Assembly: GCF_029227915.1 (NCBI RefSeq)
Contig: NC_079889.1
Location: forward strand, 8,248,001-8,312,000
Length of the DNA: 64,000 bases
Direction: 5' to 3'
DNA from: Hydractinia symbiolongicarpus
Taxonomy: Eukaryota; Cnidaria; Hydrozoa; Anthoathecata; Hydractiniidae
Part shown: one piece after another, positions 24,649-64,000 of the stretch
Layout: each line of letters begins with the position of its first letter
Position numbering within the stretch: position 1 is the first letter of the stretch
Program-made: the position numbers and the translations under genes
Notes under the pieces: model-generated
What the model saw: the letters and a program-made list of their open reading frames with translations, nothing else
Database searches by the model: none
Told to the model about the DNA's origin: nothing

Positions 24649-24667
24649 ACAATCCCAGACAAAATAA
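23789..24667 (+). pseudogene. hAT transposase N-terminal part, cut by the array
   Basis: A paralogue of the 19942-22570 transposase. It opens MPRKSKFLDDWLKDPNYKSW, has the zinc finger Cys31, Cys34, His51 and His57, a Ser/Thr/Pro-rich linker, then YSLSFDESL and ISSDGPNVNLKFL, which hold the two candidate Asp residues. It stays aligned with its paralogue up to RDLDEL and then runs into the array (last residues QSQTK come from the array). The cut lies just before the DIGSCGLH block of the paralogue. No other lesion is visible, so the array insertion may have killed a functional gene. Confidence 0.8.
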
Positions 24668-24847
24668 GTGGCAAAATGTCATTTTTCCAGTGAAAATTCA
24701 GTGTACCCCCCTTCCCCCAATATCAGAGTTGAGTTAGGCCTTGTTTTGTGCCCTGACGCATAGAAGCAACACTGATATGGGGGAGGGGGGGTGAGAGAAA
24801 CAGTATTTTGTGAAAATTGCCACTATATTTTGTCTGGGATTGTCTGA
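24649..24847. repeat. Junction palindrome, unit 1
   Basis: Imperfect inverted repeat. The outer arms are CAATCCCAGACAAAATA (24650-24666) and its exact reverse complement ending at 24842. Inner arms pair CCCCCCTTCCCCC with GGGGGAGGGGGGG and CAATATCAGAGTTG with CAACACTGATATGG. The unpaired centre is about 36 bases. It can be read as the two terminal inverted repeats of adjacent units, or as one foldable terminal hairpin. In unit 1 it borders host DNA, so one arm is a true integration end. Confidence 0.8.
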
Positions 24848-25405
24848 GACAAGTTTAGACTTAGAATTTTTCCGAGTTCAGTTTCGACTTAGATTTTTTC
24901 CAGCATTTGACTTGGTACCTTGTGAAGTGATATTTTGTGTTAATGATAACAACAAATGTTCTGAAAGGCAAAATATCTCTTCAATTTTGCAGGTGACACT
25001 CGGCTTGCGTACAGTTTCCCGTGCCTCCAGGGAAGAATTTGACGCATAAACTTCGCCTTTGTGATAAAAATATACTGTTTTCTTTTTTTTTACTATATAC
25101 AAACAAATCCGATAAATAATCTCTCTATTAAAGTCTTATGTGCATATTAACGTACTAAAAACTGTATATACCAGTGCGAAACAGCTGCGTTTACATTTAC
25201 ACGTGTTGATTTAGCATGTTAATGTTGAACGGTAAATTTGAACGTTCGCTTCAACGTTTGTTTGTATTTTCTTGTTCAAATTCAGGACAAAAACATATGT
25301 AAACAAAGCGTTCCGTACTGGTGACTACATTAAAATTTCAGTTTGCTTCTAACAAAATGTTCTGACAAAACTTGTACTTTCAGATATAAAGCTATAAATA
25401 ACAAA
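24848..25405 (+). promoter_or_regulatory. Leader of the transposase gene, unit 1
   Basis: Non-coding. A TATATA box is at 25165-25170, and a CTATAAATA lies at 25392-25400, only six bases before the likely start. A polypyrimidine-CAG acceptor-like site (TACTTTCAG, 25375-25383) could end a 5' leader intron. The 79-codon frame at 24810-25049 begins inside the palindrome and resembles nothing, so I do not call it. Confidence 0.4.
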
Positions 25406-25552
25406 ATGCAACAGCAACGCAACATCACCAAAAAGATTACGCCTGAAATGTCGACGTACTTTAAGGTACTTCATCAACAAAACGGAATGACGGGTGCAGA
25501 AATAAAAAAAATGTTTCCTCAATTTGCGTTACGCAGCTACACCGACAAATGA
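25406..25552 (+). CDS. Transposase upstream frame: helix-turn-helix domain, unit 1
   Basis: A frame of 48 codons starting MQQQRNITKKITPEMS. It contains a helical stretch, FKVLHQQNGMTGAEIKKMF, then ALRSY, which is the start of the paired-type DNA-binding domain of Tc1 transposases. It stops at TGA (25550-25552), overlapping the ATG of the main frame as ATGA. An ATG 63 bases further up (25343) is also in frame, but MQQQ has the better context (ACAAAATG). Together the two frames make one normal-length Tc1 transposase of about 360 residues. Confidence 0.65.
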   Translation: MQQQRNITKKITPEMSTYFKVLHQQNGMTGAEIKKMFPQFALRSYTDK

Positions 25553-26493
25553 AACATGAGCTCGGTCGTGAAGACAAGCGACACAACAACACTGGAAGAC
25601 CAAGGAAATTGACAGTTCGCGATGAACGTACCGTACTTAGAACGATAACAAGACTTCGCGAGGAGCGGAATCAATTTTCATCCAAGCGCATTCAAGAAGA
25701 AGCGAACCTGGCACATGTATCAACAAGAACAGTACGTCGTTGCTTACACAAACATGGATATAATTATCGTCAAGCTCGAAAGAAAGGTCTCGTCACGAAA
25801 ACCGACAAGGTCAAGAGACTTGCATTTGCAAGAGAAATGCTTCCTGTGGGAACTGATTTTTGGAAATATGAAATTGCGTTTTATTTTGATGGGGTGAGTT
25901 TTGGTCACAAAAGCAATCCGCACGGAGAGGCTCGAGCAGCTGGCGCAATGACTTGGAGACTCGCAAAAGAAGGTCTTAGTCAAACCACAAAAGGCAAGAA
26001 GGAAGGGAGTGGGGGCAAAATGGCTCAGTTTTTTATTGGAATATCTTACGATCGTGGCGTAGTTCTTTGTGAACAAATGGAAGACAAACTGACTGGAAAA
26101 ACCTTTGCTGAATTTGTGAAAACGCATTTTCCAAAAACATTTACACGTACTGTCAATCCTCAATGCCATACATTTTTGCAAGATGGAGATCCGCGACAAG
26201 TTTCAAAGGCTGCGAAAGAGGCAATGGCTTCCATAAATTGCACGATGTTCGGGATTCCAGCACGTTCCCCGGATCTCAATCCTATAGAGAATGTTTTTCA
26301 CCTTGTAAGGAAGCAGATTCGTGATGATGCCCTACGAATGCAACTGACACGAGAGAGTTACAAGCAATTTTGCGAAAGGGTAAAACGCACTATCGAAAAC
26401 TTTCCTACCGACATTATAAACAGAACGATCGAGTCAATACCAAAGCGACTGAAACTTGTGGTTCAAGGAAAAGGCAACAGAACCAAGTATTAA
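25549..26493 (+). CDS. Tc1/mariner-type DD34E transposase, unit 1
   Basis: 314 codons. The frame contains the GRPRK hinge (residues 16-20), a second helix-turn-helix (about 44-70, ending VSTRTVRRCLHKHGY) and the DDE core. Catalytic residues are Asp114 in YFDGVS, Asp212 in LQDGDP and Glu247 in PDLNPIENVF. The last two are 34 residues apart, the DD34E spacing of the Tc1 branch. Such enzymes cut at inverted repeats and insert at TA, and the host sequence at the array edge is GAACTA. The N-terminal half of the DNA-binding domain sits in the preceding frame, one base out of step. Whether the protein is made by frameshifting, by reinitiation, or not at all is unknown. The gene converges with rep across the iteron block. 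Confidence 0.9.
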   Translation: MKHELGREDKRHNNTGRPRKLTVRDERTVLRTITRLREERNQFSSKRIQEEANLAHVSTRTVRRCLHKHGYNYRQARKKGLVTKTDKVKRLAFAREMLPVGTDFWKYEIAFYFDGVSFGHKSNPHGEARAAGAMTWRLAKEGLSQTTKGKKEGSGGKMAQFFIGISYDRGVVLCEQMEDKLTGKTFAEFVKTHFPKTFTRTVNPQCHTFLQDGDPRQVSKAAKEAMASINCTMFGIPARSPDLNPIENVFHLVRKQIRDDALRMQLTRESYKQFCERVKRTIENFPTDIINRTIESIPKRLKLVVQGKGNRTKY

Positions 26494-26561
26494 ATTACTT
26501 TTTCATTTTTTTGTTGGGAGAAATGTTTTATATAGTGTGATTTTCCATTTGAAGGTTTAGG

Positions 26562-26789
26562 GTCACGCGTCACCAACGCGTCACCAACAAGTCACCAACA
26601 TGTCACCAATACATGCCCACCAAAATGACGCGTCACCACACGTCACCACTAATAATATAAAATATACTAATACTATTATTATAATACTGTTTGGTGACAT
26701 GTGGTGACATGTGTCTTTTTTGTCATTTTCCTATATAACTACTGGTAACATGTTGGTGACTCGTTGGTGACATGTTGGTGACATGTGAC
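26562..26789. other. Origin-like iteron block with central hairpin, unit 1
   Basis: GTCACCAAC iterons at 26569, 26580, 26591 and 26602 have an 11-base period. The mirror set GTTGGTGAC has GGTGAC at 26755, 26766 and 26777, also 11 bases apart. Inner pairs (26632, 26642 and 26693, 26703) form the stem of a hairpin, 26627-26648 with 26692-26715, around an AT-only-like loop of 43 bases. On the minus strand the loop has TAGTATTAG (26675-26667), and overlapping the loop end is CAGTATTAT. Both are one base off the CRESS-virus nick consensus NANTATTAC. Repeated Rep-binding sites beside a stem-loop are how rolling-circle origins look. That this is the Rep origin is inference. Confidence 0.75.
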
Positions 26790-26796
26790 AAAACAA

Positions 26797-28212
26797 TTAG
26801 AAACTATTGCTATCATACTCAGAACCTAACAAAACAAGTTTTGCAAAGCAGCTGGAACAGGGCTCCAACTGCTTCATTTCTTTAGCAGGAATTTGATGCG
26901 AGAATGAAAACATAGTCCATCGGGAGGACATCATGTCTGACTCCTTCTCGTCGCGTTGATTATATTTTCCAATGTACTCTATCTGGGCCTTGCTGGTTGC
27001 AAAGAAAGGTATGGAGTTTGTCCTGTCGATGCATAAATCCGTAGCATACTGGTTTTTGGGTCTCGGTAAATGCACCGTTTGACCCTCCAGTAGCAGCAAA
27101 AAATCGCTCCATGCTATTATTTCTGAAGACCACCTGAAATCATTTAGGTAAGCCACTTCACACTCGTCGAGCCCAACCCAGGCGTAGCGTCCAGTGGCAG
27201 GATTAACAAATGCGGTGAACATAATTTCAATAGGGTTCAGCAGAAATGACTTGCCACAATTAGTTGGTCCTACAAGCAAAATGTTGTTGCGTTTTTGACG
27301 ACCCTTATTAAAACTTTCACGCAAAGCAGTAGCAAAAACTATAGCGTTGATGTGGTTTTTAAGCAGCACATCGCGAGCAGAAATGAGCCATTCACCTTTG
27401 CAGTTGGAATTGCACGGCGCAAATGCATGGGATTGTATTATTTCCAACCGTGACTTGTTCTCCCTCTCAATAATTTGAGGTGCTTCTTGCATTCGCCAAG
27501 TTGTTGCGAGAAGGTCTGCGAGAGCCTTAGGTGACTTGTTCAAAACGAAAGAATGTAGATCTTTTTCCCCGCTTTGATTTCTTAGAAGAGCAGCCTGTAG
27601 CAATTCTGAGTCCTTTCGAATGTTGTGTTTTACCATGAACTCGGAAACGTCACTATTCGAAAGACGCTCTTTTGCTACAGGTGCTTCCGCAGCTGCAGGG
27701 GTGCTGTCTCTATCCCTCGTGGTGTTTAATCGTTGTCGCTTTGCAACCGTCGAGTTCCGCCTCATGGCTTTTTTTGTCTTTGGTGAACCTATCGTGCTCA
27801 AGTCTGTGTGGTTTGGGCTGTGAAGTATGTCCGCCACCGGTTTGTTTTTTGCAACATATCTGTACGCTGCCACATAACCGCAATGCTGCGATGAAAAATG
27901 CAAAACAAGGTGGTGTTTGTTCCAAACACTGTTCTTTATAGGGTTCCACCTTCGAGTGCCATTGAACTTAACGCACATATGAAAATGCTTTCCCCCGTTA
28001 GCGTGATCTTCTATACAACATGCCAACTGCTCAACAGAGCGATTGCTGGCCCCGTTGTGAAATGCCTCAAGAATTATCTCGGAGAAACGCTGAGTGTTGG
28101 GGACCTTTTCCATGTCTGCTTGTGAATATGTTATCAAATAAGCTCTTCTATTGTCACGATTCGATAAACTTTGTGTAAAGTCCAATTTTTCAAAACTGTT
28201 GTCGGCGCTCAT
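26797..28212 (-). CDS. CRESS-like Rep: HUH endonuclease plus superfamily 3 helicase, unit 1
   Basis: 471 residues. HUH motif I is AYLITYSQAD (24-33), motif II HFHMCVKF (His76 and His78, metal binding), motif III YVAK (Tyr119 nick nucleophile, Lys122). A basic Ser/Thr/Ala linker (145-185) follows. The helicase has Walker A GPTNCGKS (315-322), Walker B VAYLNDF (353-359), motif C IPFFATS (401-407) and an Arg-finger candidate at 431. Known relatives nick one strand at an origin stem-loop, stay joined to the 5' end and unwind, giving rolling-circle copies. The LTYSQ form of motif I recalls geminivirus/genomovirus Reps. No capsid gene accompanies it. Start ATG at 28212; TATATA at 28256-28261 is a weak promoter candidate. 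Confidence 0.9.
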   Translation of the reverse strand: MSADNSFEKLDFTQSLSNRDNRRAYLITYSQADMEKVPNTQRFSEIILEAFHNGASNRSVEQLACCIEDHANGGKHFHMCVKFNGTRRWNPIKNSVWNKHHLVLHFSSQHCGYVAAYRYVAKNKPVADILHSPNHTDLSTIGSPKTKKAMRRNSTVAKRQRLNTTRDRDSTPAAAEAPVAKERLSNSDVSEFMVKHNIRKDSELLQAALLRNQSGEKDLHSFVLNKSPKALADLLATTWRMQEAPQIIERENKSRLEIIQSHAFAPCNSNCKGEWLISARDVLLKNHINAIVFATALRESFNKGRQKRNNILLVGPTNCGKSFLLNPIEIMFTAFVNPATGRYAWVGLDECEVAYLNDFRWSSEIIAWSDFLLLLEGQTVHLPRPKNQYATDLCIDRTNSIPFFATSKAQIEYIGKYNQRDEKESDMMSSRWTMFSFSHQIPAKEMKQLEPCSSCFAKLVLLGSEYDSNSF

Positions 28213-28621
28213 GTCTATTAAACTTTTAAAACTGAAAACAGAAGGCGTGCGTTTGTATATAAAATTCTTGTAGTTTATATCATTATTTGCAGTTTTTTTT
28301 ATTTACGCTAGCTTATGTTGATTTAAAGGGAGCACACTTTAGCCTCCAACTTGTAAAAATATGTATTATGTAGCTCAGAAACTCAACTTGTATCAATCAC
28401 ACAGTAAACTCTACCATTACTGTTTGTTTACATTTCATTCCTCATGTAAAAGTACTGAATTTTGAATAAAAGATGGCTACCAAGCACATGGCCACATGGG
28501 CTAGCTGTTTGATACAAGATGTGTTGGAGCAGTCTTATTTAGAGTATGTTAAGACTTGTTTTATTTTTGAACTGTTTTGAACCTGGTAAGGAAACCTCTG
28601 TTCAATTTTTTTTTCCAATTT
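28213..28621 (-). promoter_or_regulatory. Leader of the rep gene, unit 1
   Basis: About 410 non-coding bases between the rep start and the next junction palindrome. Apart from the TATATA at 28256-28261 and T-runs I see no structure. The same stretch recurs in each unit upstream of rep. Confidence 0.35.
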
Positions 28622-28825
28622 TCAGACAATCCCAGACAAAATAAGTGGCAAAATGTCATTTTTCCAGTGAAAATTCAGTGTACCCCCCTTCCCCCAATAT
28701 CAGAGTTGAGTTAGGCCTTGTTTTGTGCCCTGACGCATAGAAGCAACACTGATATGGGGGAGGGGGGGGTGAGAGAAACAGTATTTTGTGAAAATTGCCA
28801 CTATATTTTGTCTGGGATTGTCTGA
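28622..28825. repeat. Junction palindrome, units 1/2
   Basis: First fully internal junction; arms extend to TCAGA and TCTGA, so the perfect outer arm is 22 bases. Confidence 0.8.
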
Positions 28826-29526
28826 GACAAGTTTAGACTTAGAATTTTTCCGAGTTCAGTTTCGACTTAGATTTTTTCCAGCATTTGACTTGGTACCTTG
28901 TGAAGTGATATTTTGTGTTAATGATAACAACAAATGTTCTGAAAGGCAAAATATCTCTTCAATTTTGCAGGTGACACTCGGCTTGCGTACAGTTTCCCGT
29001 GCCTCCAGGGAAGAATTTGACGCATAAACTTCGCCTTTGTGATAAAAATATACTGTTTTCTTTTTTTTTACTATATACAAACAAATCCGATAAATAATCT
29101 CTCTATTAAAGTCTTATGTGCATATTAACGTACTAAAAACTGTATATACCAGTGCGAAACAGCTGCGTTTACATTTACACGTGTTGATTTAGCATGTTAA
29201 TGTTGAACGGTAAATTTGAACGTTCGCTTCAACGTTTGTTTGTATTTTCTTGTTCAAATTCAGGACAAAAACATATGTAAACAAAGCGTTCCGTACTGGT
29301 GACTACATTAAAATTTCAGTTTGCTTCTAACAAAATGTTCTGACAAAACTTGTACTTTCAGATATAAAGCTATAAATAACAAAATGCAACAGCAACGCAA
29401 CATCACCAAAAAGATTACGCCTGAAATGTCGACGTACTTTAAGGTACTTCATCAACAAAACGGAATGACGGGTGCAGAAATAAAAAAAATGTTTCCTCAA
29501 TTTGCGTTACGCAGCTACACCGACAA

Positions 29527-30471
29527 ATGAAACATGAGCTCGGTCGTGAAGACAAGCGACACAACAACACTGGAAGACCAAGGAAATTGACAGTTCGCGA
29601 TGAACGTACCGTACTTAGAACGATAACAAGACTTCGCGAGGAGCGGAATCAATTTTCATCCAAGCGCATTCAAGAAGAAGCGAACCTGGCACATGTATCA
29701 ACAAGAACAGTACGTCGTTGCTTACACAAACATGGATATAATTATCGTCAAGCTCGAAAGAAAGGTCTCGTCACGAAAACCGACAAGGTCAAGAGACTTG
29801 CATTTGCAAGAGAAATGCTTCCTGTGGGAACTGATTTTTGGAAATATGAAATTGCGTTTTATTTTGATGGGGTGAGTTTTGGTCACAAAAGCAATCCGCA
29901 CGGAGAGGCTCGAGCAGCTGGCGCAATGACTTGGAGACTCGCAAAAGAAGGTCTTAGTCAAACCACAAAAGGCAAGAAGGAAGGGAGTGGGGGCAAAATG
30001 GCTCAGTTTTTTATTGGAATATCTTACGATCGTGGCGTAGTTCTTTGTGAACAAATGGAAGACAAACTGACTGGAAAAACCTTTGCTGAATTTGTGAAAA
30101 CGCATTTTCCAAAAACATTTACACGTACTGTCAATCCTCAATGCCATACATTTTTGCAAGATGGAGATCCGCGACAAGTTTCAAAGGCTGCGAAAGAGGC
30201 AATGGCTTCCATAAATTGCACGATGTTCGGGATTCCAGCACGTTCCCCGGATCTCAATCCTATAGAGAATGTTTTTCACCTTGTAAGGAAGCAGATTCGT
30301 GATGATGCCCTACGAATGCAACTGACACGAGAGAGTTACAAGCAATTTTGCGAAAGGGTAAAACGCACTATCGAAAACTTTCCTACCGACATTATAAACA
30401 GAACGATCGAGTCAATACCAAAGCGACTGAAACTTGTGGTTCAAGGAAAAGGCAACAGAACCAAGTATTAA
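29527..30471 (+). CDS. DD34E transposase, unit 2
   Basis: Main frame with the same translation as unit 1. The upstream helix-turn-helix frame is at 29384-29530, with the same ATGA overlap. Confidence 0.9.
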   Translation: MKHELGREDKRHNNTGRPRKLTVRDERTVLRTITRLREERNQFSSKRIQEEANLAHVSTRTVRRCLHKHGYNYRQARKKGLVTKTDKVKRLAFAREMLPVGTDFWKYEIAFYFDGVSFGHKSNPHGEARAAGAMTWRLAKEGLSQTTKGKKEGSGGKMAQFFIGISYDRGVVLCEQMEDKLTGKTFAEFVKTHFPKTFTRTVNPQCHTFLQDGDPRQVSKAAKEAMASINCTMFGIPARSPDLNPIENVFHLVRKQIRDDALRMQLTRESYKQFCERVKRTIENFPTDIINRTIESIPKRLKLVVQGKGNRTKY

Positions 30472-30539
30472 ATTACTTTTTCATTTTTTTGTTGGGAGAA
30501 ATGTTTTATATAGTGTGATTTTCCATTTGAAGGTTTAGG

Positions 30540-30767
30540 GTCACGCGTCACCAACGCGTCACCAACAAGTCACCAACATGTCACCAATACATGCCCACCA
30601 AAATGACGCGTCACCACACGTCACCACTAATAATATAAAATATACTAATACTATTATTATAATACTGTTTGGTGACATGTGGTGACATGTGTCTTTTTTG
30701 TCATTTTCCTATATAACTACTGGTAACATGTTGGTGACTCGTTGGTGACATGTTGGTGACATGTGAC
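30540..30767. other. Origin-like iteron block, unit 2
   Basis: Same iteron order and hairpin as unit 1. Confidence 0.75.
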
Positions 30768-30774
30768 AAAACAA

Positions 30775-32190
30775 TTAGAAACTATTGCTATCATACTCAG
30801 AACCTAACAAAACAAGTTTTGCAAAGCAGCTGGAACAGGGCTCCAACTGCTTCATTTCTTTAGCAGGAATTTGATGCGAGAATGAAAACATAGTCCATCG
30901 GGAGGACATCATGTCTGACTCCTTCTCGTCGCGTTGATTATATTTTCCAATGTACTCTATCTGGGCCTTGCTGGTTGCAAAGAAAGGTATGGAGTTTGTC
31001 CTGTCGATGCATAAATCCGTAGCATACTGGTTTTTGGGTCTCGGTAAATGCACCGTTTGACCCTCCAGTAGCAGCAAAAAATCGCTCCATGCTATTATTT
31101 CTGAAGACCACCTGAAATCATTTAGGTAAGCCACTTCACACTCGTCGAGCCCAACCCAGGCGTAGCGTCCAGTGGCAGGATTAACAAATGCGGTGAACAT
31201 AATTTCAATAGGGTTCAGCAGAAATGACTTGCCACAATTAGTTGGTCCTACAAGCAAAATGTTGTTGCGTTTTTGACGACCCTTATTAAAACTTTCACGC
31301 AAAGCAGTAGCAAAAACTATAGCGTTGATGTGGTTTTTAAGCAGCACATCGCGAGCAGAAATGAGCCATTCACCTTTGCAGTTGGAATTGCACGGCGCAA
31401 ATGCATGGGATTGTATTATTTCCAACCGTGACTTGTTCTCCCTCTCAATAATTTGAGGTGCTTCTTGCATTCGCCAAGTTGTTGCGAGAAGGTCTGCGAG
31501 AGCCTTAGGTGACTTGTTCAAAACGAAAGAATGTAGATCTTTTTCCCCGCTTTGATTTCTTAGAAGAGCAGCCTGTAGCAATTCTGAGTCCTTTCGAATG
31601 TTGTGTTTTACCATGAACTCGGAAACGTCACTATTCGAAAGACGCTCTTTTGCTACAGGTGCTTCCGCAGCTGCAGGGGTGCTGTCTCTATCCCTCGTGG
31701 TGTTTAATCGTTGTCGCTTTGCAACCGTCGAGTTCCGCCTCATGGCTTTTTTTGTCTTTGGTGAACCTATCGTGCTCAAGTCTGTGTGGTTTGGGCTGTG
31801 AAGTATGTCCGCCACCGGTTTGTTTTTTGCAACATATCTGTACGCTGCCACATAACCGCAATGCTGCGATGAAAAATGCAAAACAAGGTGGTGTTTGTTC
31901 CAAACACTGTTCTTTATAGGGTTCCACCTTCGAGTGCCATTGAACTTAACGCACATATGAAAATGCTTTCCCCCGTTAGCGTGATCTTCTATACAACATG
32001 CCAACTGCTCAACAGAGCGATTGCTGGCCCCGTTGTGAAATGCCTCAAGAATTATCTCGGAGAAACGCTGAGTGTTGGGGACCTTTTCCATGTCTGCTTG
32101 TGAATATGTTATCAAATAAGCTCTTCTATTGTCACGATTCGATAAACTTTGTGTAAAGTCCAATTTTTCAAAACTGTTGTCGGCGCTCAT
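30775..32190 (-). CDS. CRESS-like Rep, unit 2
   Basis: 471 residues, all motifs intact, Phe192/Ile277 variant. Confidence 0.9.
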   Translation of the reverse strand: MSADNSFEKLDFTQSLSNRDNRRAYLITYSQADMEKVPNTQRFSEIILEAFHNGASNRSVEQLACCIEDHANGGKHFHMCVKFNGTRRWNPIKNSVWNKHHLVLHFSSQHCGYVAAYRYVAKNKPVADILHSPNHTDLSTIGSPKTKKAMRRNSTVAKRQRLNTTRDRDSTPAAAEAPVAKERLSNSDVSEFMVKHNIRKDSELLQAALLRNQSGEKDLHSFVLNKSPKALADLLATTWRMQEAPQIIERENKSRLEIIQSHAFAPCNSNCKGEWLISARDVLLKNHINAIVFATALRESFNKGRQKRNNILLVGPTNCGKSFLLNPIEIMFTAFVNPATGRYAWVGLDECEVAYLNDFRWSSEIIAWSDFLLLLEGQTVHLPRPKNQYATDLCIDRTNSIPFFATSKAQIEYIGKYNQRDEKESDMMSSRWTMFSFSHQIPAKEMKQLEPCSSCFAKLVLLGSEYDSNSF

Positions 32191-32599
32191 GTCTATTAAA
32201 CTTTTAAAACTGAAAACAGAAGGCGTGCGTTTGTATATAAAATTCTTGTAGTTTATATCATTATTTGCAGTTTTTTTTATTTACGCTAGCTTATGTTGAT
32301 TTAAAGGGAGCACACTTTAGCCTCCAACTTGTAAAAATATGTATTATGTAGCTCAGAAACTCAACTTGTATCAATCACACAGTAAACTCTACCATTACTG
32401 TTTGTTTACATTTCATTCCTCATGTAAAAGTACTGAATTTTGAATAAAAGATGGCTACCAAGCACATGGCCACATGGGCTAGCTGTTTGATACAAGATGT
32501 GTTGGAGCAGTCTTATTTAGAGTATGTTAAGACTTGTTTTATTTTTGAACTGTTTTGAACCTGGTAAGGAAACCTCTGTTCAATTTTTTTTTCCAATTT

Positions 32600-34745: not shown

Positions 34746-34752
34746 AAAACAA

Positions 34753-52492: not shown

Positions 52493-52696
52493 TCAGACAA
52501 TCCCAGACAAAATAAGTGGCAAAATGTCATTTTTCCAGTGAAAATTCAGTGTACCCCCCTTCCCCCAATATCAGAGTTGAGTTAGGCCTTGTTTTGTGCC
52601 CTGACGCATAGAAGCAACACTGATATGGGGGAGGGGGGGGTGAGAGAAACAGTATTTTGTGAAAATTGCCACTATATTTTGTCTGGGATTGTCTGA
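52493..52696. repeat. Junction palindrome, units 7/8
   Basis: Same arms and centre as the 1/2 junction. Confidence 0.8.
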
Positions 52697-53397
52697 GACA
52701 AGTTTAGACTTAGAATTTTTCCGAGTTCAGTTTCGACTTAGATTTTTTCCAGCATTTGACTTGGTACCTTGTGAAGTGATATTTTGTGTTAATGATAACA
52801 ACAAATGTTCTGAAAGGCAAAATATCTCTTCAATTTTGCAGGTGACACTCGGCTTGCGTACAGTTTCCCGTGCCTCCAGGGAAGAATTTGACGCATAAAC
52901 TTCGCCTTTGTGATAAAAATATACTGTTTTCTTTTTTTTTACTATATACAAACAAATCCGATAAATAATCTCTCTATTAAAGTCTTATGTGCATATTAAC
53001 GTACTAAAAACTGTATATACCAGTGCCAAACAGCTGCGTTTACATTTACACGTGTTGATTTAGCATGTTAATGTTGAACGGTAAATTTGAACGTTCGCTT
53101 CAACGTTTGTTTGTATTTTCTTGTTCAAATTCAGGACAAAAACATATGTAAACAAAGCGTTCCGTACTGGTGACTACATTAAAATTTCAGTTTGCTTCTA
53201 ACAAAATGTTCTGACAAAACTTGTACTTTCAGATATAAAGCTATAAATAACAAAATGCAACAGCAACGCAACATCACCAAAAAGATTACGCCTGAAATGT
53301 CGACGTACTTTAAGGTACTTCATCAACAAAACGGAATGACGGGTGCAGAAATAAAAAAAATGTTTCCTCAATTTGCGTTACGCAGCTACACCGACAA

Positions 53398-54437
53398 ATG
53401 AAACATGAGCTCGGTCGTGAAGACAAGCGACACAACAACACTGGAAGACCAAGGAAATTGACAGTTCGCGATGAACGTACCGTACTTAGAACGATAACAA
53501 GACCTCGCGAGGAGCGGAATCAATTTTCATCCAAGCGCATTCAAGAAGAAGCGAACCTGGCACATGTATCAACAAGAACAGTACGTCGTTGCTTACACAA
53601 ACATGGATATAATTATCGTCAAGCTCGAAAGAAAGGTCTCGTCACGAAAACCGACAAGGTCAAGAGACTTGCATTTGCAAGAGAAATGCTTCCTGTGGGA
53701 ACTGATTTTTGGAAATATGAAATTGCGTTTTATTTTGATGGGGTGAGTTTTGGTCACAAAAGCAATCCGCACGGAGAGGCTCGAGCAGCTGGCGCAATGA
53801 CTTGGAGACTCGCAAAAGAAGGTCTTAGTCAAACCACAAAAGGCAAGAAGGAAGGGAGTGGGGGCAAAATGGCTCAGTTTTTTATTGGAATATCTTACGA
53901 TCGTGGCGTAGTTCTTTGTGAACAAATGGAAGACAAACTGACTGGAAAAACCTTTGCTGAATTTGTGAAAACGCATTTTCCAAAAACATTTACACGTACT
54001 GTCAATCCTCAATGCCATACATTTTTGCAAGATGGAGATCCGCGACAAGTTTCAAAGGCTGCGAAAGAGGCAATGGCTAAACATTTACACGTACTGTCAA
54101 TCCTCAATGCCATACATTTTTGCAAGATGGAGATCCGCGACAAGTTTCAAAGGCTGCGAAAGAGGCAATGGCTTCCATAAATTGCACGATGTTCGGGATT
54201 CCAGCACGTTCCCCGGATCTCAATCCTATAGAGAATGTTTTTCACCTTGTAAGGAAGCAGATTCGTGATGATGCCCTACGAATGCAACTGACACGAGAGA
54301 GTTACAAGCAATTTTGCGAAAGCGTAAAACGCACTATCGAAAACTTTCCTACCGACATTATAAACAGAACGATCGAGTCAATACCAAAGCGACTGAAACT
54401 TGTGGTTCAAGGAAAAGGCAACAGAACCAAGTATTAA
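53398..54437 (+). pseudogene. DD34E transposase, unit 8, frameshifted
   Basis: A 95-bp tandem duplication (53984-54078 repeated at 54079-54173) shifts the frame after Ala227 and stops at 54180, before the catalytic Glu. The remaining C-terminal frame is seen at 54120-54437. It also differs by Leu36 to Pro and by an Arg to Ser change in QFCESVKRT. The upstream frame is at 53255-53401. Confidence 0.9.
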
Positions 54438-54505
54438 ATTACTTTTTCTTTTTTTTGTTGGGAGAAATGTTTTATATAGTGTGATTTTCCATTTGAAGGT
54501 TTAGG

Positions 54506-54733
54506 GTCACGCGTCACCAACGCGTCACCAACAAGTCACCAACATGTCACCAATACATGCCCACCAAAATGACGCGTCACCACACGTCACCACTAATAAT
54601 ATAAAATATACTAATACTATTATTATAATACTGTTTGGTGACATGTGGTGACATGTGTCTTTTTTGTCATTTTCCTATATAACTACTGGTAACATGTTGG
54701 TGACTCGTTGGTGACATGTTGGTGACATGTGAC
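54506..54733. other. Origin-like iteron block, unit 8
   Basis: Unchanged although both flanking genes are damaged. Confidence 0.75.
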
Positions 54734-54740
54734 AAAACAA

Positions 54741-56060
54741 TTAGAAACTATTGCTATCATACTCAGAACCTAACAAAACAAGTTTTGCAAAGCAGCTGGA
54801 ACAGGGCTCCAACTGCTTCATTTCTTTAGCAGGAATTTGATGCGAGAATGAAAACATAGTCCATCGGGAGGACATCATGTCTGACTCCTTCTCGTCGCGT
54901 TGATTATATTTTCCAATGTACTCTATCTGGGCCTTGCTGGTTGCAAAGAAAGGTATGGAGTTTGTCCTGTCGATGCATAAATCCGTAGCATACTGGTTTT
55001 TGGGTCTCGGTAAATGCACCGTTTGACCCTCCAGTAGCAGCAAAAAATCGCTCCATGCTATTATTTCTGAAGACCACCTGAAATCATTTAGGTAAGCCAC
55101 TTCACACTCGTCGAGCCCAACCCAGGCGTAGCGTCCAGTGGCAGGATTAACAAATGCGGTGAACATAATTTCAATAGGGTTCAGCAGAAATGACTTGCCA
55201 CAATTAGTTGGTCCTACAAGCAAAATGTTGTTGCGTTTTTGACGACCCTTATTAAAACTTTCACGCAAAGCAGTAGCAAAAACTATAGCGTTGATGTGGT
55301 TTTTAAGCAGCACATCGCGAGCAGAAACGAGCCATTCACCTTTGCAGTTGGAATTGCACGGCGCAAATGCATGGGATTGTATTATTTCCAACCGTGACTT
55401 GTTCTCCCTCTCAATAATTTGAGGTGCTTCTTGCATTCGCCAAGTTGTTGCGAGAAGGTCTGCGAGAGCCTTAGGTGACTTGTTCAAAACGAAAGAATGT
55501 AGATCTTTTTCCCCGCTTTGATTTCTTAGAAGAGCAGCCTGTAGCAATTCTGAGTCCTTTCGAATGTTGTGTTTTACCATTAACTCGGAAACGTCACTAT
55601 TCGAAAGACGCTCTTTTGCTACAGGTGCTTCCGCAGCTGCAGGGGTGCTGTCTCTATCCCTCGTGGTGTTTAATCGTTGTCGCTTTGCAACCGTCGAGTT
55701 CCGCCTCATGGCTTTTTTTGTCTTTGGTGAACCTATCGTGCTCAAATCTGTGTGGTTTGGGCTGTGAAGTATGTCCGCCACCGGTTTGTTTTTTGCAACA
55801 TATCTGTACGCTGCCACATAACCGCAATGCTGCGATGAAAAATGCAAAACAAGGTGGTGTTTGTTCCAAACACTGTTCTTTATAGGGTTCCACCTTCGAG
55901 TGCCATTGAACTTAACGCACATATGAAAATGCTTTCCCCCGTTAGCGTGATCTTCTATACAACATGCCAACTGCTCAACAGAGCGATTGCTGGCCCCGTT
56001 GTGAAATGCCTCAAGAATTATCTCGGAGAAACGCTTTTCAAAACTGTTGTCGGCGCTCAT
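54741..56060 (-). pseudogene. Rep, unit 8, lacking HUH motif I
   Basis: An in-frame deletion of 96 bp removes residues 10-41, including the AYLITYSQAD motif. Motifs II and III and the helicase remain (439 residues). The nuclease fold should be broken, so it is called a pseudogene although the frame is open. Confidence 0.85.
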
Positions 56061-56469
56061 GTCTATTAAACTTTTAAAACTGAAAACAGAAGGCGTGCGT
56101 TTGTATATAAAATTCTTGTAGTTTATATCATTATTTGCAGTTTTTTTTATTTACGCTAGCTTATGTTGATTTAAAGGGAGCACACTTTAGCCTCCAACTT
56201 GTAAAAATATGTATTATGTAGCTCAGAAACTCAACTTGTATCAATCACACAGTAAACTCTACCATTACTGTTTGTTTACATTTCATTCCTCATGTAAAAG
56301 TACTGAATTTTGAATAAAAGATGGCTACCAAGCACATGGCCACATGGGCTAGCTGTTTGATACAAGATGTGTTGGAGCAGTCTTATTTAGAGTATGTTAA
56401 GACTTGTTTTATTTTTGAACTGTTTTGAACCTGGTAAGGAAACCTCTGTTCAATTTTTTTTTCCAATTT

Positions 56470-56674
56470 TCAGACAATCCCAGACAAAATAAGTGGCAAA
56501 ATGTCATTTTTCCAGTGAAAATTCAGTGTACCCCCCTTCCCCCAATATCAGAGTTGAGTTAGGCCTTGTTTTGTGCCCTGACGCATAGAAGCAACACTGA
56601 TATGGGGGAGGGGGGGGGTGAGAGAAACAGTATTTTGTGAAAATTGCCACTATATTTTGTCTGGGATTGTCTGA
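56470..56674. repeat. Junction palindrome, units 8/9
   Basis: G-run of 9; otherwise as the 1/2 junction. Confidence 0.8.
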
Positions 56675-57375
56675 GACAAGTTTAGACTTAGAATTTTTCC
56701 GAGTTCAGTTTCGACTTAGATTTTTTCCAGCATTTGACTTGGTACCTTGTGAAGTGATATTTTGTGTTAATGATAACAACAAATGTTCTGAAAGGCAAAA
56801 TATCTCTTCAATTTTGCAGGTGACACTCGGCTTGCGTACAGTTTCCCGTGCCTCCAGGGAAGAATTTGACGCATAAACTTCGCCTTTGTGATAAAAATAT
56901 ACTGTTTTCTTTTTTTTTACTATATACAAACAAATCCGATAAATAATCTCTCTATTAAAGTCTTATGTGCATATTAACGTACTAAAAACTGTATATACCA
57001 GTGCGAAACAGCTGCGTTTACATTTACACGTGTTGATTTAGCATGTTAATGTTGAACGGTAAATTTGAACGTTCGCTTCAACGTTTGTTTGTATTTTCTT
57101 GTTCAAATTCAGGACAAAAACATATGTAAACAAAGCGTTCCGTACTGGTGACTACATTAAAATTTCAGTTTGCTTCTAACAAAATGTTCTGACAAAACTT
57201 GTACTTTCAGATATAAAGCTATAAATAACAAAATGCAACAGCAACGCAACATCACCAAAAAGATTACGCCTGAAATGTCGACGTACTTTAAGGTACTTCA
57301 TCAACAAAACGGAATGACGGGTGCAGAAATAAAAAAAATGTTTCCTCAATTTGCGTTACGCAGCTACACCGACAA

Positions 57376-58320
57376 ATGAAACATGAGCTCGGTCGTGAAG
57401 ACAAGCGACACAACAACACTGGAAGACCAAGGAAATTGACAGTTCGCGATGAACGTACCGTACTTAGAACGATAACAAGACTTCGCGAGGAGCGGAATCA
57501 ATTTTCATCCAAGCGCATTCAAGAAGAAGCGAACCTGGCACATGTATCAACAAGAACAGTACGTCGTTGCTTACACAAACATGGATATAATTATCGTCAA
57601 GCTCGAAAGAAAGGTCTCGTCACGAAAACCGACAAGGTCAAGAGACTTGCATTTGCAAGAGAAATGCTTCCTGTGGGAACTGATTTTTGGAAATATGAAA
57701 TTGCGTTTTATTTTGATGGGGTGAGTTTTGGTCACAAAAGCAATCCGCACGGAGAGGCTCGAGCAGCTGGCGCAATGACTTGGAGACTCGCAAAAGAAGG
57801 TCTTAGTCAAACCACAAAAGGCAAGAAGGAAGGGAGTGGGGGCAAAATGGCTCAGTTTTTTATTGGAATATCTTACGATCGTGGCGTAGTTCTTTGTGAA
57901 CAAATGGAAGACAAACTGACTGGAAAAACCTTTGCTGAATTTGTGAAAACGCATTTTCCAAAAACATTTACACGTACTGTCAATCCTCAATGCCATACAT
58001 TTTTGCAAGATGGAGATCCGCGACAAGTTTCAAAGGCTGCGAAAGAGGCAATGGCTTCCATAAATTGCACGATGTTCGGGATTCCAGCACGTTCCCCGGA
58101 TCTCAATCCTATAGAGAATGTTTTTCACCTTGTAAGGAAGCAGATTCGTGATGATGCCCTACGAATGCAACTGACACGAGAGAGTTACAAGCAATTTTGC
58201 GAAAGGGTAAAACGCACTATCGAAAACTTTCCTACCGACATTATAAACAGAACGATCGAGTCAATACCAAAGCGACTGAAACTTGTGGTTCAAGGAAAAG
58301 GCAACAGAACCAAGTATTAA
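57376..58320 (+). CDS. DD34E transposase, unit 9
   Basis: Same translation as unit 1; upstream frame at 57233-57379. Confidence 0.9.
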   Translation: MKHELGREDKRHNNTGRPRKLTVRDERTVLRTITRLREERNQFSSKRIQEEANLAHVSTRTVRRCLHKHGYNYRQARKKGLVTKTDKVKRLAFAREMLPVGTDFWKYEIAFYFDGVSFGHKSNPHGEARAAGAMTWRLAKEGLSQTTKGKKEGSGGKMAQFFIGISYDRGVVLCEQMEDKLTGKTFAEFVKTHFPKTFTRTVNPQCHTFLQDGDPRQVSKAAKEAMASINCTMFGIPARSPDLNPIENVFHLVRKQIRDDALRMQLTRESYKQFCERVKRTIENFPTDIINRTIESIPKRLKLVVQGKGNRTKY

Positions 58321-58388
58321 ATTACTTTTTCTTTTTTTTGTTGGGAGAAATGTTTTATATAGTGTGATTTTCCATTTGAAGGTTTAGG

Positions 58389-58616
58389 GTCACGCGTCAC
58401 CAACGCGTCACCAACAAGTCACCAACATGTCACCAATACATGCCCACCAAAATGACGCGTCACCACACGTCACCACTAATAATATAAAATATACTAATAC
58501 TATTATTATAATACTGTTTGGTGACATGTGGTGACATGTGTCTTTTTTGTCATTTTCCTATATAACTACTGGTAACATGTTGGTGACTCGTTGGTGACAT
58601 GTTGGTGACATGTGAC
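58389..58616. other. Origin-like iteron block, unit 9
   Basis: Same iteron order and hairpin as unit 1. Confidence 0.75.
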
Positions 58617-58623
58617 AAAACAA

Positions 58624-60039
58624 TTAGAAACTATTGCTATCATACTCAGAACCTAACAAAACAAGTTTTGCAAAGCAGCTGGAACAGGGCTCCAACTGCT
58701 TCATTTCTTTAGCAGGAATTTGATGCGAGAATGAAAACATAGTCCATCGGGAGGACATCATGTCTGACTCCTTCTCGTCGCGTTGATTATATTTTCCAAT
58801 GTACTCTATCTGGGCCTTGCTGGTTGCAAAGAAAGGTATGGAGTTTGTCCTGTCGATGCATAAATCCGTAGCATACTGGTTTTTGGGTCTCGGTAAATGC
58901 ACCGTTTGACCCTCCAGTAGCAGCAAAAAATCGCTCCATGCTATTATTTCTGAAGACCACCTGAAATCATTTAGGTAAGCCACTTCACACTCGTCGAGCC
59001 CAACCCAGGCGTAGCGTCCAGTGGCAGGATTAACAAATGCGGTGAACATAATTTCAATAGGGTTCAGCAGAAATGACTTGCCACAATTAGTTGGTCCTAC
59101 AAGCAAAATGTTGTTGCGTTTTTGACGACCCTTATTAAAACTTTCACGCAAAGCAGTAGCAAAAACTATAGCGTTGATGTGGTTTTTAAGCAGCACATCG
59201 CGAGCAGAAACGAGCCATTCACCTTTGCAGTTGGAATTGCACGGCGCAAATGCATGGGATTGTATTATTTCCAACCGTGACTTGTTCTCCCTCTCAATAA
59301 TTTGAGGTGCTTCTTGCATTCGCCAAGTTGTTGCGAGAAGGTCTGCGAGAGCCTTAGGTGACTTGTTCAAAACGAAAGAATGTAGATCTTTTTCCCCGCT
59401 TTGATTTCTTAGAAGAGCAGCCTGTAGCAATTCTGAGTCCTTTCGAATGTTGTGTTTTACCATTAACTCGGAAACGTCACTATTCGAAAGACGCTCTTTT
59501 GCTACAGGTGCTTCCGCAGCTGCAGGGGTGCTGTCTCTATCCCTCGTGGTGTTTAATCGTTGTCGCTTTGCAACCGTCGAGTTCCGCCTCATGGCTTTTT
59601 TTGTCTTTGGTGAACCTATCGTGCTCAAATCTGTGTGGTTTGGGCTGTGAAGTATGTCCGCCACCGGTTTGTTTTTTGCAACATATCTGTACGCTGCCAC
59701 ATAACCGCAATGCTGCGATGAAAAATGCAAAACAAGGTGGTGTTTGTTCCAAACACTGTTCTTTATAGGGTTCCACCTTCGAGTGCCATTGAACTTAACG
59801 CACATATGAAAATGCTTTCCCCCGTTAGCGTGATCTTCTATACAACATGCCAACTGCTCAACAGAGCGATTGCTGGCCCCGTTGTGAAATGCCTCAAGAA
59901 TTATCTCGGAGAAACGCTGAGTGTTGGGGACCTTTTCCATGTCTGCTTGTGAATATGTTATCAAATAAGCTCTTCTATTGTCACGATTCGATAAACTTTG
60001 TGTAAAGTCCAATTTTTCAAAACTGTTGTCGGCGCTCAT
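58624..60039 (-). CDS. CRESS-like Rep, unit 9
   Basis: 471 residues, Leu192/Val277 variant; last intact rep in the window. Confidence 0.9.
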   Translation of the reverse strand: MSADNSFEKLDFTQSLSNRDNRRAYLITYSQADMEKVPNTQRFSEIILEAFHNGASNRSVEQLACCIEDHANGGKHFHMCVKFNGTRRWNPIKNSVWNKHHLVLHFSSQHCGYVAAYRYVAKNKPVADILHSPNHTDLSTIGSPKTKKAMRRNSTVAKRQRLNTTRDRDSTPAAAEAPVAKERLSNSDVSELMVKHNIRKDSELLQAALLRNQSGEKDLHSFVLNKSPKALADLLATTWRMQEAPQIIERENKSRLEIIQSHAFAPCNSNCKGEWLVSARDVLLKNHINAIVFATALRESFNKGRQKRNNILLVGPTNCGKSFLLNPIEIMFTAFVNPATGRYAWVGLDECEVAYLNDFRWSSEIIAWSDFLLLLEGQTVHLPRPKNQYATDLCIDRTNSIPFFATSKAQIEYIGKYNQRDEKESDMMSSRWTMFSFSHQIPAKEMKQLEPCSSCFAKLVLLGSEYDSNSF

Positions 60040-60448
60040 GTCTATTAAACTTTTAAAACTGAAAACAGAAGGCGTGCGTTTGTATATAAAATTCTTGTAG
60101 TTTATATCATTATTTGCAGTTTTTTTTATTTACGCTAGCTTATGTTGATTTAAAGGGAGCACACTTTAGCCTCCAACTTGTAAAAATATGTATTATGTAG
60201 CTCAGAAACTCAACTTGTATCAATCACACAGTAAACTCTACCATTACTGTTTGTTTACATTTCATTCCTCATGTAAAAGTACTGAATTTTGAATAAAAGA
60301 TGGCTACCAAGCACATGGCCACATGGGCTAGCTGTTTGATACAAGATGTGTTGGAGCAGTCTTATTTAGAGTATGTTAAGACTTGTTTTATTTTTGAACT
60401 GTTTTGAACCTGGTAAGGAAACCTCTGTTCAATTTTTTTTTCCAATTT

Positions 60449-60652
60449 TCAGACAATCCCAGACAAAATAAGTGGCAAAATGTCATTTTTCCAGTGAAAA
60501 TTCAGTGTACCCCCCTTCCCCCAATATCAGAGTTGAGTTAGGCCTTGTTTTGTGCCCTGACGCATAGAAGCAACACTGATATGGGGGAGGGGGGGGTGAG
60601 AGAAACAGTATTTTGTGAAAATTGCCACTATATTTTGTCTGGGATTGTCTGA
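60449..60652. repeat. Junction palindrome, units 9/10
   Basis: Same arms and centre as the 1/2 junction. Confidence 0.8.
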
Positions 60653-61353
60653 GACAAGTTTAGACTTAGAATTTTTCCGAGTTCAGTTTCGACTTAGATT
60701 TTTTCCAGCATTTGACTTGGTACCTTGTGAAGTGATATTTTGTGTTAATGATAACAACAAATGTTCTGAAAGGCAAAATATCTCTTCAATTTTGCAGGTG
60801 ACACTCGGCTTGCGTACAGTTTCCCGTGCCTCCAGGGAAGAATTTGACGCATAAACTTCGCCTTTGTGATTAAAATATACTGTTTTCTTTTTTTTTACTA
60901 TATACAAACAAATCCGATAAATAATCTCTCTATTAAAGTCTTATGTGCATATTAACGTACTAAAAACTGTATATACCAGTGCGAAACAGCTGCGTTTACA
61001 TTTACACGTGTTGATTTAGCATGTTAATGTTGAACGGTAAATTTGAACGTTCGCTTCAACGTTTGTTTGTATTTTCTTGTTCAAATTCAGGACAAAAACA
61101 TATGTAAACAAAGCGTTCCGTACTGGTGACTACATTAAAATTTCAGTTTGCTTCTAACAAAATGTTCTGACAAAACTTGTACTTTCAGATATAAAGCTAT
61201 AAATAACAAAATGCAACAGCAACGCAACATCACCAAAAAGATTACGCCTGAAATGTCGACGTACTTTAAGGTACTTCATCAACAAAACGGAATGACGGGT
61301 GCAGAAATAAAAAAAATGTTTCCTCAATTTGCGTTACGCAGCTACACCGACAA

Positions 61354-62298
61354 ATGAAACATGAGCTCGGTCGTGAAGACAAGCGACACAACAACACTGG
61401 AAGACCAAGGAAATTGACAGTTCGCGATGAACGTACCGTACTTAGAACGATAACAAGACTTCGCGAGGAGCGGAATCAATTTTCATCCAAGCGCATTCAA
61501 GAAGAAGCGAACCTGGCACATGTATCAACAAGAACAGTACGTCGTTGCTTACACAAACATGGATATAATTATCGTCAAGCTCGAAAGAAAGGTCTCGTCA
61601 CGAAAACCGACAAGGTCAAGAGACTTGCATTTGCAAGAGAAATGCTTCCTGTGGGAACTGATTTTTGGAAATATGAAATTGCGTTTTATTTTGATGGGGT
61701 GAGTTTTGGTCACAAAAGCAATCCGCACGGAGAGGCTCGAGCAGCTGGCGCAATGACTTGGAGACTCGCAAAAGAAGGTCTTAGTCAAACCACAAAAGGC
61801 AAGAAGGAAGGGAGTGGGGGCAAAATGGCTCAGTTTTTTATTGGAATATCTTACGATCGTGGCGTAGTTCTTTGTGAACAAATGGAAGACAAACTGACTG
61901 GAAAAACCTTTGCTGAATTTGTGAAAACGCATTTTCCAAAAACATTTACACGTACTGTCAATCCTCAATGCCATACATTTTTGCAAGATGGAGATCCGCG
62001 ACAAGTTTCAAAAGCTGCGAAAGAGGCAATGGCTTCCATAAATTGCACGATGTTCGGGATTCCAGCACGTTCCCCGGATCTCAATCCTATAGAGAATGTT
62101 TTTCACCTTGTAAGGAAGCAGATTCGTGATGATGCCCTACGAATGCAACTGACATGAGAGAGTTACAAGCAATTTTGCGAAAGGGTAAAACGCACTATCG
62201 AAAACTTTCCTACCGACATTATAAACAGAACGATCGAGTCAATACCAAAGCGACTGAAACTTGTGGTTCAAGGAAAAGGCAACAGAACCAAGTATTAA
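61354..62298 (+). pseudogene. DD34E transposase, unit 10, nonsense mutant
   Basis: A CGA to TGA change at 62155-62157 stops the protein after residue 267. All three catalytic residues are upstream of the stop, but the last 47 residues are lost. The upstream frame is at 61211-61357. Confidence 0.9.
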
Positions 62299-62366
62299 AT
62301 TACTTTTTCATTTTTTTGTTGGGAGAAATGTTTTATATAGTGTGATTTTCCATTTGAAGGTTTAGG

Positions 62367-62594
62367 GTCACGCGTCACCAACGCGTCACCAACAAGTCAC
62401 CAACATGTCACCAATACATGCCCACCAAAATGACGCGTCACCACACGTCACCACTAATAATATAAAATATACTAATACTATTATTATAATACTGTTTGGT
62501 GACATGTGGTGACATGTGTCTTTTTTGTCATTTTCCTATATAACTACTGGTAACATGTTGGTGACTCGTTGGTGACATGTTGGTGACATGTGAC
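62367..62594. other. Origin-like iteron block, unit 10
   Basis: Same iteron order and hairpin as unit 1. Confidence 0.75.
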
Positions 62595-62601
62595 AAAACA
62601 A

Positions 62602-64000
62602 TTAGAAACTATTGCTATCATACTCAGAACCTAACAAAACAAGTTTTGCAAAGCAGCTGGAACAGGGCTCCAACTGCTTCATTTCTTTAGCAGGAATTTG
62701 ATGCGAGAATGAAAACATAGTCCATCGGGAGGACATCATGTCTGACTCCTTCTCGTCGCGTTGATTATATTTTCCAATCTACTCTATCTGGGCCTTGCTG
62801 GTTGCAAAGAAAGGTATGGAGTTTGTCCTGTCGATGCATAAATCCGTAGCATACTGGTTTTTGGGTCTCGGTAAATGCACCGTTTGACCCTCCAGTAGCA
62901 GCAAAAAATCGCTCCATGCTATTATTTCTGAAGACCACCTGAAATCATTTAGGTAAGCCACTTCACACTCGTCGAGCCCAACCCAGGCGTAGCGTCCAGT
63001 GGCAGGATTAACAAATGCGGTGAACATAATTTCAATAGGGTTCAGCAGAAATGACTTGCCACAATTAGTTGGTCCTACAAGCAAAATGTTGTTGCGTTTT
63101 TGACGACCCTTATTAAAACTTTCACGCAAAGCAGTAGCAAAAACTATAGCGTTGATGTGGTTTTTAAGCAGCACATCGCGAGCAGAAACGAGCCATTCAC
63201 CTTTGCAGTTGGAATTGCACGGCGCAAATGCATGGGATTGTATTATTTCCAACCGTGACTTGTTCTCCCTCTCAATAATTTGAGGTGCTTCTTGCATTCG
63301 CCAAGTTGTTGCGAGAAGGTCTGCGAGAGCCTTAGGTGACTTGTTCAAAACGAAAGAATGTAGATCTTTTTCCCCGCTTTGATTTCTTAGAAGAGCAGCC
63401 TGTAGCAATTCTGAGTCCTTTCGAATGTTGTGTTTTACCATGAACTCGGAAACGTCACTATTCGAAAGACGCTCTTTTGCTACAGGTGCTTCCGCAGCTG
63501 CAGGGGTGCTGTCTCTATCCCTCGTGGTGTTTAATCGTTGTCGCTTTGCAACCGTCGAGTTCCGCCTCATGGCTTTTTTTGTCTTTGGTGAACCTATCGT
63601 GCTCAAATCTGTGTGGTTTGGGCTGTGAAGTATGTCCGCCACCGGTTTGTTTTTTGCAACATATCTGTACGCTGCCACATAACCGCAATGCTGCGATGAA
63701 AAATGCAAAACAAGGTGGTGTTTGTTCCAAACACTGTTCTTTATAGGGTTCCACCTTCGAGTGCCATTGAACTTAACGCACATATGAAAATGCTTTCCCC
63801 CGTTAGCGTGATCTTCTATACAACATGCCAACTGCTCAACAGAGCGATTGCTGGCCCCGTTGTGAAATGCCTCAAGAATTATCTCGGAGAAACGCTGAGT
63901 GTTGGGGACCTTTTCCATGTCTGCTTGTGAATATGTTATCAAATAAGCTCTTCTATTGTCACGATTCGATAAACTTTGTGTAAAGTCCAATTTTTCAAAA
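62602..64000 (-). pseudogene. Rep, unit 10, nonsense mutant, 5' end outside the window
   Basis: A Tyr413 codon has become a stop at 62779-62781, removing the Arg-finger region and the C-terminus. Phe192 with Val277 makes it a mosaic of the two Rep variants. The first codons lie beyond 64000. Confidence 0.9.

Follow-up and report, generated by a model that had tools for sequence, protein, structure and literature searches.

Introduction

DD34E transposases, the type found in the Tc1/mariner/IS630 group, move DNA by cut and paste at TA dinucleotides, and the established view is that Tc1-type transposons raise their copy number only by an indirect route, relying on repair or replication by the host. 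IS630 is said, in the title of one study, to prefer CTAG as its target. Helitrons and Replitrons are eukaryotic mobile elements that carry an HUH enzyme and are described as being moved by that enzyme itself, and in the self-synthesising Polintons (Mavericks) and casposons a DNA polymerase is combined with a retroviral-type integrase or Cas1. For ISY100, a bacterial element of the IS630 family, a published report describes cut and paste at TA (PMC2170065). Here, we describe a tandem array in a 64,000-nucleotide stretch of the Hydractinia symbiolongicarpus genome (the window; NC_079889.1, or C15, positions 8248001-8312000, in an assembly of 480.9 Mb and 76 contigs), whose units pair a DD34E transposase gene with a gene for a predicted Rep that combines an HUH nuclease with a superfamily 3 (SF3) helicase. 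Labels such as C1, C12 and C6_207 denote contigs or stretches of this same assembly.

We consider it probable that the array represents one insertion event by a family of eukaryotic DNA transposons that has both enzymes and whose circular form would be copied by Rep. Like Sleeping Beauty, Mos1, IS630 and ISY100, the element has a DD34E transposase and a TA duplication, its CTAG target matches the preference named for IS630, and the helix-turn-helix DNA-binding part of the transposase is kept in relatives and in further arrays on C12 and C1. It differs from them in having a second enzyme and multi-unit insertions, and in that directly repeated palindromic cassettes, each holding both transposon ends, enclose two genes, in place of one simple terminal inverted repeat pair around a single transposase gene. 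With CRESS-DNA viruses and parvoviruses (Rep or NS1, as in adeno-associated virus [AAV] Rep68) it shares an HUH nuclease followed by an SF3 helicase and iterons and a palindrome near the gene, but no capsid-like open reading frame (ORF) was found, a DDE transposase is linked to Rep, and the copies are chromosomal insertions with a TA duplication. Helitrons and Replitrons likewise have an HUH enzyme, but the insertion marks of a DDE transposase and the SF3 helicase do not fit mobility by an HUH enzyme only. Polintons and casposons also unite a replication enzyme with an integrase in one element; here, in contrast, a Rep and a Tc1-type transposase share about 4 kb, and neither the unit nor the copies examined showed an ORF for a DNA polymerase B. 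A literature search over titles and the starts of abstracts, with Repbase, preprints and most subscription papers outside it, returned no described family with both enzymes. What may be new is the combined anatomy of both enzymes and palindromic direct terminal repeats; the parts are of known kinds, and the family may have been described earlier.

Results and Discussion

The array and its two genes

The preliminary description of this locus, made from the letters of the window, had reported ten head-to-tail units of 3.98 kb. Ten near-identical units of that size do run from position 24650 to the window end, with starts at 24650, 28627, 32605, 36583, 40561, 44542, 48520, 52498, 56475 and 60454 (Table 1). 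The array extends farther, with units 11 and 12 starting at C15:8312429 and 8316396, so that it has 12 units in total, the last of which terminates in a deletion junction at C15:8320157. Pairs of window units differ by 0 to 9 substitutions, with none among units 1 to 3 or among units 5, 6, 7 and 9, small length differences aside; some variants are common to units 1 to 4 and others to units 5 to 9, and unit 10 is a mosaic. In each window unit, the transposase ORF on the plus strand and the Rep ORF on the minus strand lie tail to tail. Each unit had been described as having a DD34E transposase and a Rep with all HUH and helicase motifs, and the DD34E and Rep motifs did hold up, but the 314-amino-acid transposase ORF and the 471-amino-acid Rep ORF are each whole in only 8 of 10 window units and the transposase N terminus is out of frame in every one. 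The ORFs of unit 8 are shortened to 260 (transposase) and 439 (Rep) amino acids. In unit 10, which is also cut by the window end, a premature stop interrupts each of the two genes.

The catalytic residues of the transposase are D114, D212 and E247, the last two being separated by 34 residues. The protein matches the Pfam families HTH_Tnp_Tc3_2 and DDE_3, a PDB sequence search with it returned Sleeping Beauty (E 4.7e-12), and its predicted model (mean predicted local distance difference test score [pLDDT] 85.3) matches the structures of Mos1 and Sleeping Beauty, so that residues, domains and fold all agree with the DD34D/E spacing of Tc1/mariner/IS630. Close relatives are mostly about 340 to 390 amino acids long (best 120 of 1142). 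Their first helix-turn-helix is absent from the 314-amino-acid ORF of the window and is encoded just upstream in another frame, where the N-terminal part of seven of the eight relatives tried could be aligned.

Rep carries HFH at residues 76 to 78, YRYVAK, the Walker A sequence GPTNCGKS and ATSK. H76, H78, Y119 and K122 of motif III and the Walker A Gly and Lys are invariant across 31 aligned Rep sequences, among which profile matches were to PPV_E1_C (24), REP_ORF2-G2P (23), Gemini_AL1 (12) and Parvo_NS1 (8); the window Rep itself matches PPV_E1_C and Parvo_NS1 above their cutoffs. The predicted model (pLDDT 87.1; predicted template modelling score 0.58) has AAV2 Rep68 as its best PDB match (E 3.7e-12), along with papillomavirus E1, Vientovirus Rep and B19 NS1, and compared with viral models it resembles chiefly parvovirus NS proteins and papillomavirus E1. 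Full-length structural alignments gave high root-mean-square deviations, as expected for two domains placed loosely. Alignment, Pfam and fold agree on an HUH motif with a catalytic tyrosine and on an SF3 Walker A and motif C, and by sequence and predicted structure Rep is a geminivirus-like HUH domain joined to an E1/NS1-type SF3 helicase. The earlier label of a CRESS-like Rep thus tells only part of the story.

Linkage of the two genes

Genome matches, fragments included, numbered at least 132 for the transposase and at least 97 for Rep and clustered into 66 and 45 loci, respectively. Among the matches listed, a transposase match lay within 5 kb at 36 of the 45 Rep loci, whereas 1000 trials with shifted Rep loci gave on average 0.17 partnered loci and never more than 3, and a Rep match lay within 5 kb at 36 of the 66 transposase loci. 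On the strength of this linkage, we reject the idea that a Tc1 element came to lie next to a Rep element by chance. We read 16 stretches, most of them chosen with knowledge of the matches and representing 15 sites, as C13 gave both ends of one array. Both genes were present in 13 stretches, convergent in all 13, and the transposase stood alone in the other 3.

In database searches, Rep had 378 relatives and the transposase 1142, and the best 120 of each were compared by pairing contigs of equal length, used as a stand-in for identity. The two best-120 lists had 20 lengths in common (shifted lengths: mean 2.45, maximum 9 in 2000 trials). Dropping 2094, in which both genes cannot fit, and 4660, which two Reps share, leaves about 18 contigs that, paired by length only, apparently hold both genes. 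Over these 18 contigs and the window, Rep and transposase distances were correlated (0.63; P = 0.0001 by a permutation that ignores shared ancestry), and the nearest neighbours often differed between the two genes. One named organism among the database relatives is Paramuricea clavata. Between subfamilies, synonymous sites were saturated and the nonsynonymous divergence (dN) of either gene was 0.30 to 0.51, counting only pairs more than 50% identical; together with the ratios for recent copies given below, this agrees with long-term constraint followed by decay after insertion. Judged by these sequence comparisons, a single element family contains both the transposase and Rep, in line with the pairing first noticed in the window.

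Terminal cassettes and the insertion site

The ends of the element are formed by a cassette, a palindrome of about 180 to 206 bp (CAATC...GATTG) that is directly oriented at both ends and unites the left end of the transposon (CAATC...) with its right end (...GATTG). At each unit boundary of the window array, it is a 204-bp palindrome with a perfect 22-bp inverted repeat, and its folding is far stronger than that of shuffled sequences (z -11.4). Cassettes occur solo (five looked at), around single units or between array units. Direct cassette repeats flank single-unit copies (C6_207, 206 bp, 100%; C5_618, 99.5%; C14_233, 98.5%), and a direct repeat pair surrounds the genes in 10 of the 13 two-gene stretches. 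The BLAST boundaries of the pair do not both fall on CAATC and GATTG in C12_201 and C4_273 and start inside the cassette in C7_428 and C7_194; C12_174 and C7_188 have no direct repeat pair. The basic element is cassette-core-cassette. Its core consists of the convergent gene pair with, in most cases, an inverted iteron array between the genes. An insertion begins at a cassette left end and finishes at a right end belonging to another cassette, with 0 (solo), 1, 2 or about 12 cores in between.

The outer junctions read CTA/CAATC...GATTG/TAG, the slash marking the junction. Flanks were counted for 16 insertions, with 14 left and 13 right flanks placeable. On the left, there were 12 CTA (background, 1.3%), 1 GTA and 1 without TA, giving TA in 13 of 14, and on the right, 11 were TAG (background, 1.1%) and 2 were others. 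For the solo cassette on C6, the right end was placed at the later ATTG in this count; an earlier GTTG/TAG was seen by eye and left uncounted. Where both flanks could be placed, nine insertions had CTA on the left with TAG on the right and one had GTA with TAG, consistent with duplication of the TA. Transposase-type insertion at C-TA-G with the TA duplicated, by ends in keeping with the class of the transposase, is thus well supported.

The window array interrupts a BED-finger, hAT-like host gene, for which the genome gave 11 more DNA matches. In all five paralogues fetched, the empty CTAG site is present, and the sequence (...GATGAACTA/GCTGG...) runs through the insertion point. The right end of the array is a deletion. 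Set against two of the paralogues, the locus has lost the final cassette, along with 205 bp from the last unit and about 960 bp from the host gene; the remaining three paralogues are themselves shorter at that position. The prediction that arrays end at cassette edges failed here but held for the C12 and C1 arrays, which in a genome cassette search begin at one outer cassette edge and stop at the opposite outer edge. Most copies, C14_233 being an exception, read CAGA/CAATC and GATTG/TCTG at the internal junctions between core and cassette. We rejected the view that the cassette is an ordinary miniature inverted-repeat transposable element inserted in the core, as internal cassettes are flanked by GA and TC, not TA.

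Central iterons

A central palindrome (fold z -9.3) with inverted iterons sits between the ends of the two convergent genes. Among 14 intergenic regions, several of which belong to one subfamily and are not independent, 12 contained an 8-mer present at least 7 times and 10 had two opposed arrays; shuffles gave at most 4 copies in 11 regions and 7 in the other three. The iteron motif varies by subfamily. Of the 14 iteron-core hits in the window unit, the centre holds 11 and the cassette none. The CRESS nonanucleotide, considered as an origin mark, was inconsistent between subfamilies. The central inverted iteron array is likely the origin or binding site of Rep, a putative role assigned from the sequence.

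How the arrays may have arisen

In the mechanism that we propose, Rep would bind the central iterons and nick there, and would copy an excised circle of one core and one cassette by rolling-circle replication into head-to-tail concatemers, after which the transposase would paste the stretch between two cassettes into CTAG. The locus had first been read as a replicating transposon inserted by either the transposase or Rep; insertion of the transposase type is borne out by the TA duplication at CTAG, while the Rep-amplified circle is what we infer, and recombination between cassettes also acts. We lean towards amplification assisted by Rep with recombination acting too. A broader proposal, of which we are slightly more doubtful than convinced, is a widespread class of eukaryotic replicating transposons in which Rep would copy the circle starting at the central iterons, the transposase would paste concatemers by way of the palindromic direct terminal repeats, the CAGA and TCTG core edges, which lack TA, would shield the internal ends from being cut, and arrays left with one enzyme would persist by mutual help in trans. 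An element with its own Rep could gain copies directly, and the family would show in a concrete example how replication genes of viral type and transposases combine, with a bearing on the origins of single-stranded DNA viruses, as well as a source of gene-bearing satellite arrays.

Two further large arrays of this subfamily bear on how amplification occurs, the unit type being different at each of the three. The C12 array has 9 cassettes and 8 transposase matches, in units mostly of 2752 bp, and its main units are deleted for unit positions 2240 to 3456, which is most of Rep. The C1 array has 13 cores by transposase matches and 10 cassettes and has lost positions 2208 to 3396, a different deletion. 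In the pieces read, the main units of both retain the cassette, the iteron region and a transposase frame that is open over 362 amino acids and includes the N-terminal motif. Since units with Rep deleted were still amplified in tandem, amplification needs no Rep in cis. Within this subfamily, the arrays with an open Rep are thus not those with a full-length transposase frame, so further movement would need help in trans. Some C1 units have also lost the cassette yet stand in tandem; C1:26370000-26379900 has tandem units of about 1.86 and 1.97 kb without most of Rep and without the cassette.

Such arrays are what unequal recombination alone could produce, with a single copy inserting and its direct cassettes or units then recombining into arrays and solo cassettes, as happens with long terminal repeat elements, and with Rep acting otherwise or having no role in array formation. 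We regard this as possible, though on the doubtful side. The direct terminal repeats of about 180 to 206 bp in single-unit copies, the solo cassettes, the cassette-less units within the C1 array, the block structure of the window array and the separate unit type of each large array all speak for it. It leaves unexplained the lasting linkage of Rep to the transposase and the constraint on Rep seen in the dN values and saturated synonymous sites, as well as the conserved central iterons.

Several observations weigh against the replicating-transposon reading. The cassette-less units together with the block-wise common variants indicate recombination in place. The transposase frame of the window is broken at its N terminus in 10 of 10 units, and, lacking the N-terminal DNA-binding part, the array is not self-sufficient as it stands. 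A check named in the preliminary description was whether the two genes always lie in separate families elsewhere; the outcome was the opposite, yet within 5 kb a partner match is missing at 30 of the 66 transposase loci and 9 of the 45 Rep loci. No transposase remnants were found beside an older degraded Rep copy in the left flank of the window. Recent copies give no sign of purifying selection, with dN/dS (nonsynonymous to synonymous) ratios of 0.64 to 1.71 in six pairs, which are uninformative. C11_250 and C9_216 are without a clear iteron array, the repeats of C4_232 are interleaved, and those of C12_201 lie mostly in one orientation in a long region. In two solo cassettes, one flank or both are without TA, and the TA duplication of the window array itself is unreadable because its right end is a deletion. 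The circular form, nicking at the origin and transposition are all postulated from genome sequence.

The other explanations fare worse. The nearness of the Rep fold to AAV Rep68 and parvovirus NS proteins and the strong hairpins into which the cassettes fold would suit a parvovirus-like linear replicon, in which the cassettes are hairpin telomeres for a rolling-hairpin Rep and the transposase only integrates the product. Rolling-hairpin concatemers are head to head, unlike the head-to-tail window array, and the putative Rep sites are central with none in the cassette, which makes this explanation improbable. A provirus, that is, an integrated single-stranded DNA virus that acquired a transposase, would account for the viral type of the Rep and is still less probable. 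As had been noted for the window, a capsid-like ORF is missing: neither the unit nor any of seven related copies showed one among free ORFs of at least 80 amino acids, and 6 of these 8 copies have no free ORF of that size outside the two genes. TA duplication at CTAG also speaks against a provirus, and pattern-plus-tblastn scans of viral contigs found no relatives of the transposase or of Rep (for Rep, with both single-protein and alignment-based scans). Searches of prokaryote genomes and of plasmids found no Rep relatives, and a PHROGs search gave no match for either protein. The two copies with free ORFs have an 81-amino-acid ORF overlapping the cassette and, at 5151-5537 of C12_201 between Rep and the transposase, a 129-amino-acid ORF with a start that by eye resembles a pogo/CENP-B-type helix-turn-helix, perhaps a nested element. 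An assembly artefact multiplying one copy, or chance nesting, we think hardly credible: the units are nearly identical and were examined in the assembly, but distinguishing variants are ordered along the array, two further arrays of the subfamily have different unit types, and the gene pair is linked far above chance.

Besides the three large arrays, two others were noticed in the genome. C13:8862243-8917817 is a long tandem array with a period of about 2735 bp and a distant transposase fragment, and no cassette motif was found in the two ends fetched. In C1:25565785-25604743, Rep-like genes recur, in most cases about every 6.96 kb, and a partial transposase accompanies the first of them; the pieces fetched showed no clear cassette ends.

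Other features of the window

Table 1. Positions of the array, its parts and neighbouring features in the window
Feature	Position	Strand	Remarks
Tandem array, units 1-10 of 12	24650..64000	+	3977-3981 bp per unit; unit 10 truncated by window end
Cassette 1, left outer end of the array	24650..24843	+	Both transposon ends in one palindrome
Transposase N-terminal helix-turn-helix stretch	25395..25548	+	Out of frame with main ORF; identical in 10/10 units
DD34E Tc1-type transposase ORF, 314 aa (unit 1)	25549..26493	+	Recurs in every unit
Central palindrome with inverted ~11-bp iterons (unit 1)	26562..26789		GTCACCAA / TTGGTGAC; putative Rep origin
Predicted HUH-SF3 Rep ORF, 471 aa (unit 1)	26797..28212	-	Recurs in every unit
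Cassette between units 1 and 2	28622..28825	+	Perfect 22-bp inverted arms; recurs at start of each later unit
Unit 8	52498..56474	+	95-bp duplication in transposase gene, 96-bp deletion in Rep
BED-finger, hAT-like host gene	23789..24649	+	Interrupted by array at CTA/CAATC
Older degraded Rep copy	1632..4307	-	Split by reverse-transcriptase element

The left flank of the window contains ubiquitin-hydrolase and reverse transcriptase domains (Pfam). The reverse transcriptase ORF inside the degraded Rep copy is at 2450-3139 on the plus strand, and a ubiquitin-hydrolase-like gene has a 136-bp tandem duplication at 6296-6565. The interrupted host gene and a second BED-finger, hAT-like gene at 19942-22573 on the minus strand are of one family, with 35% identity over 299 alignment columns.

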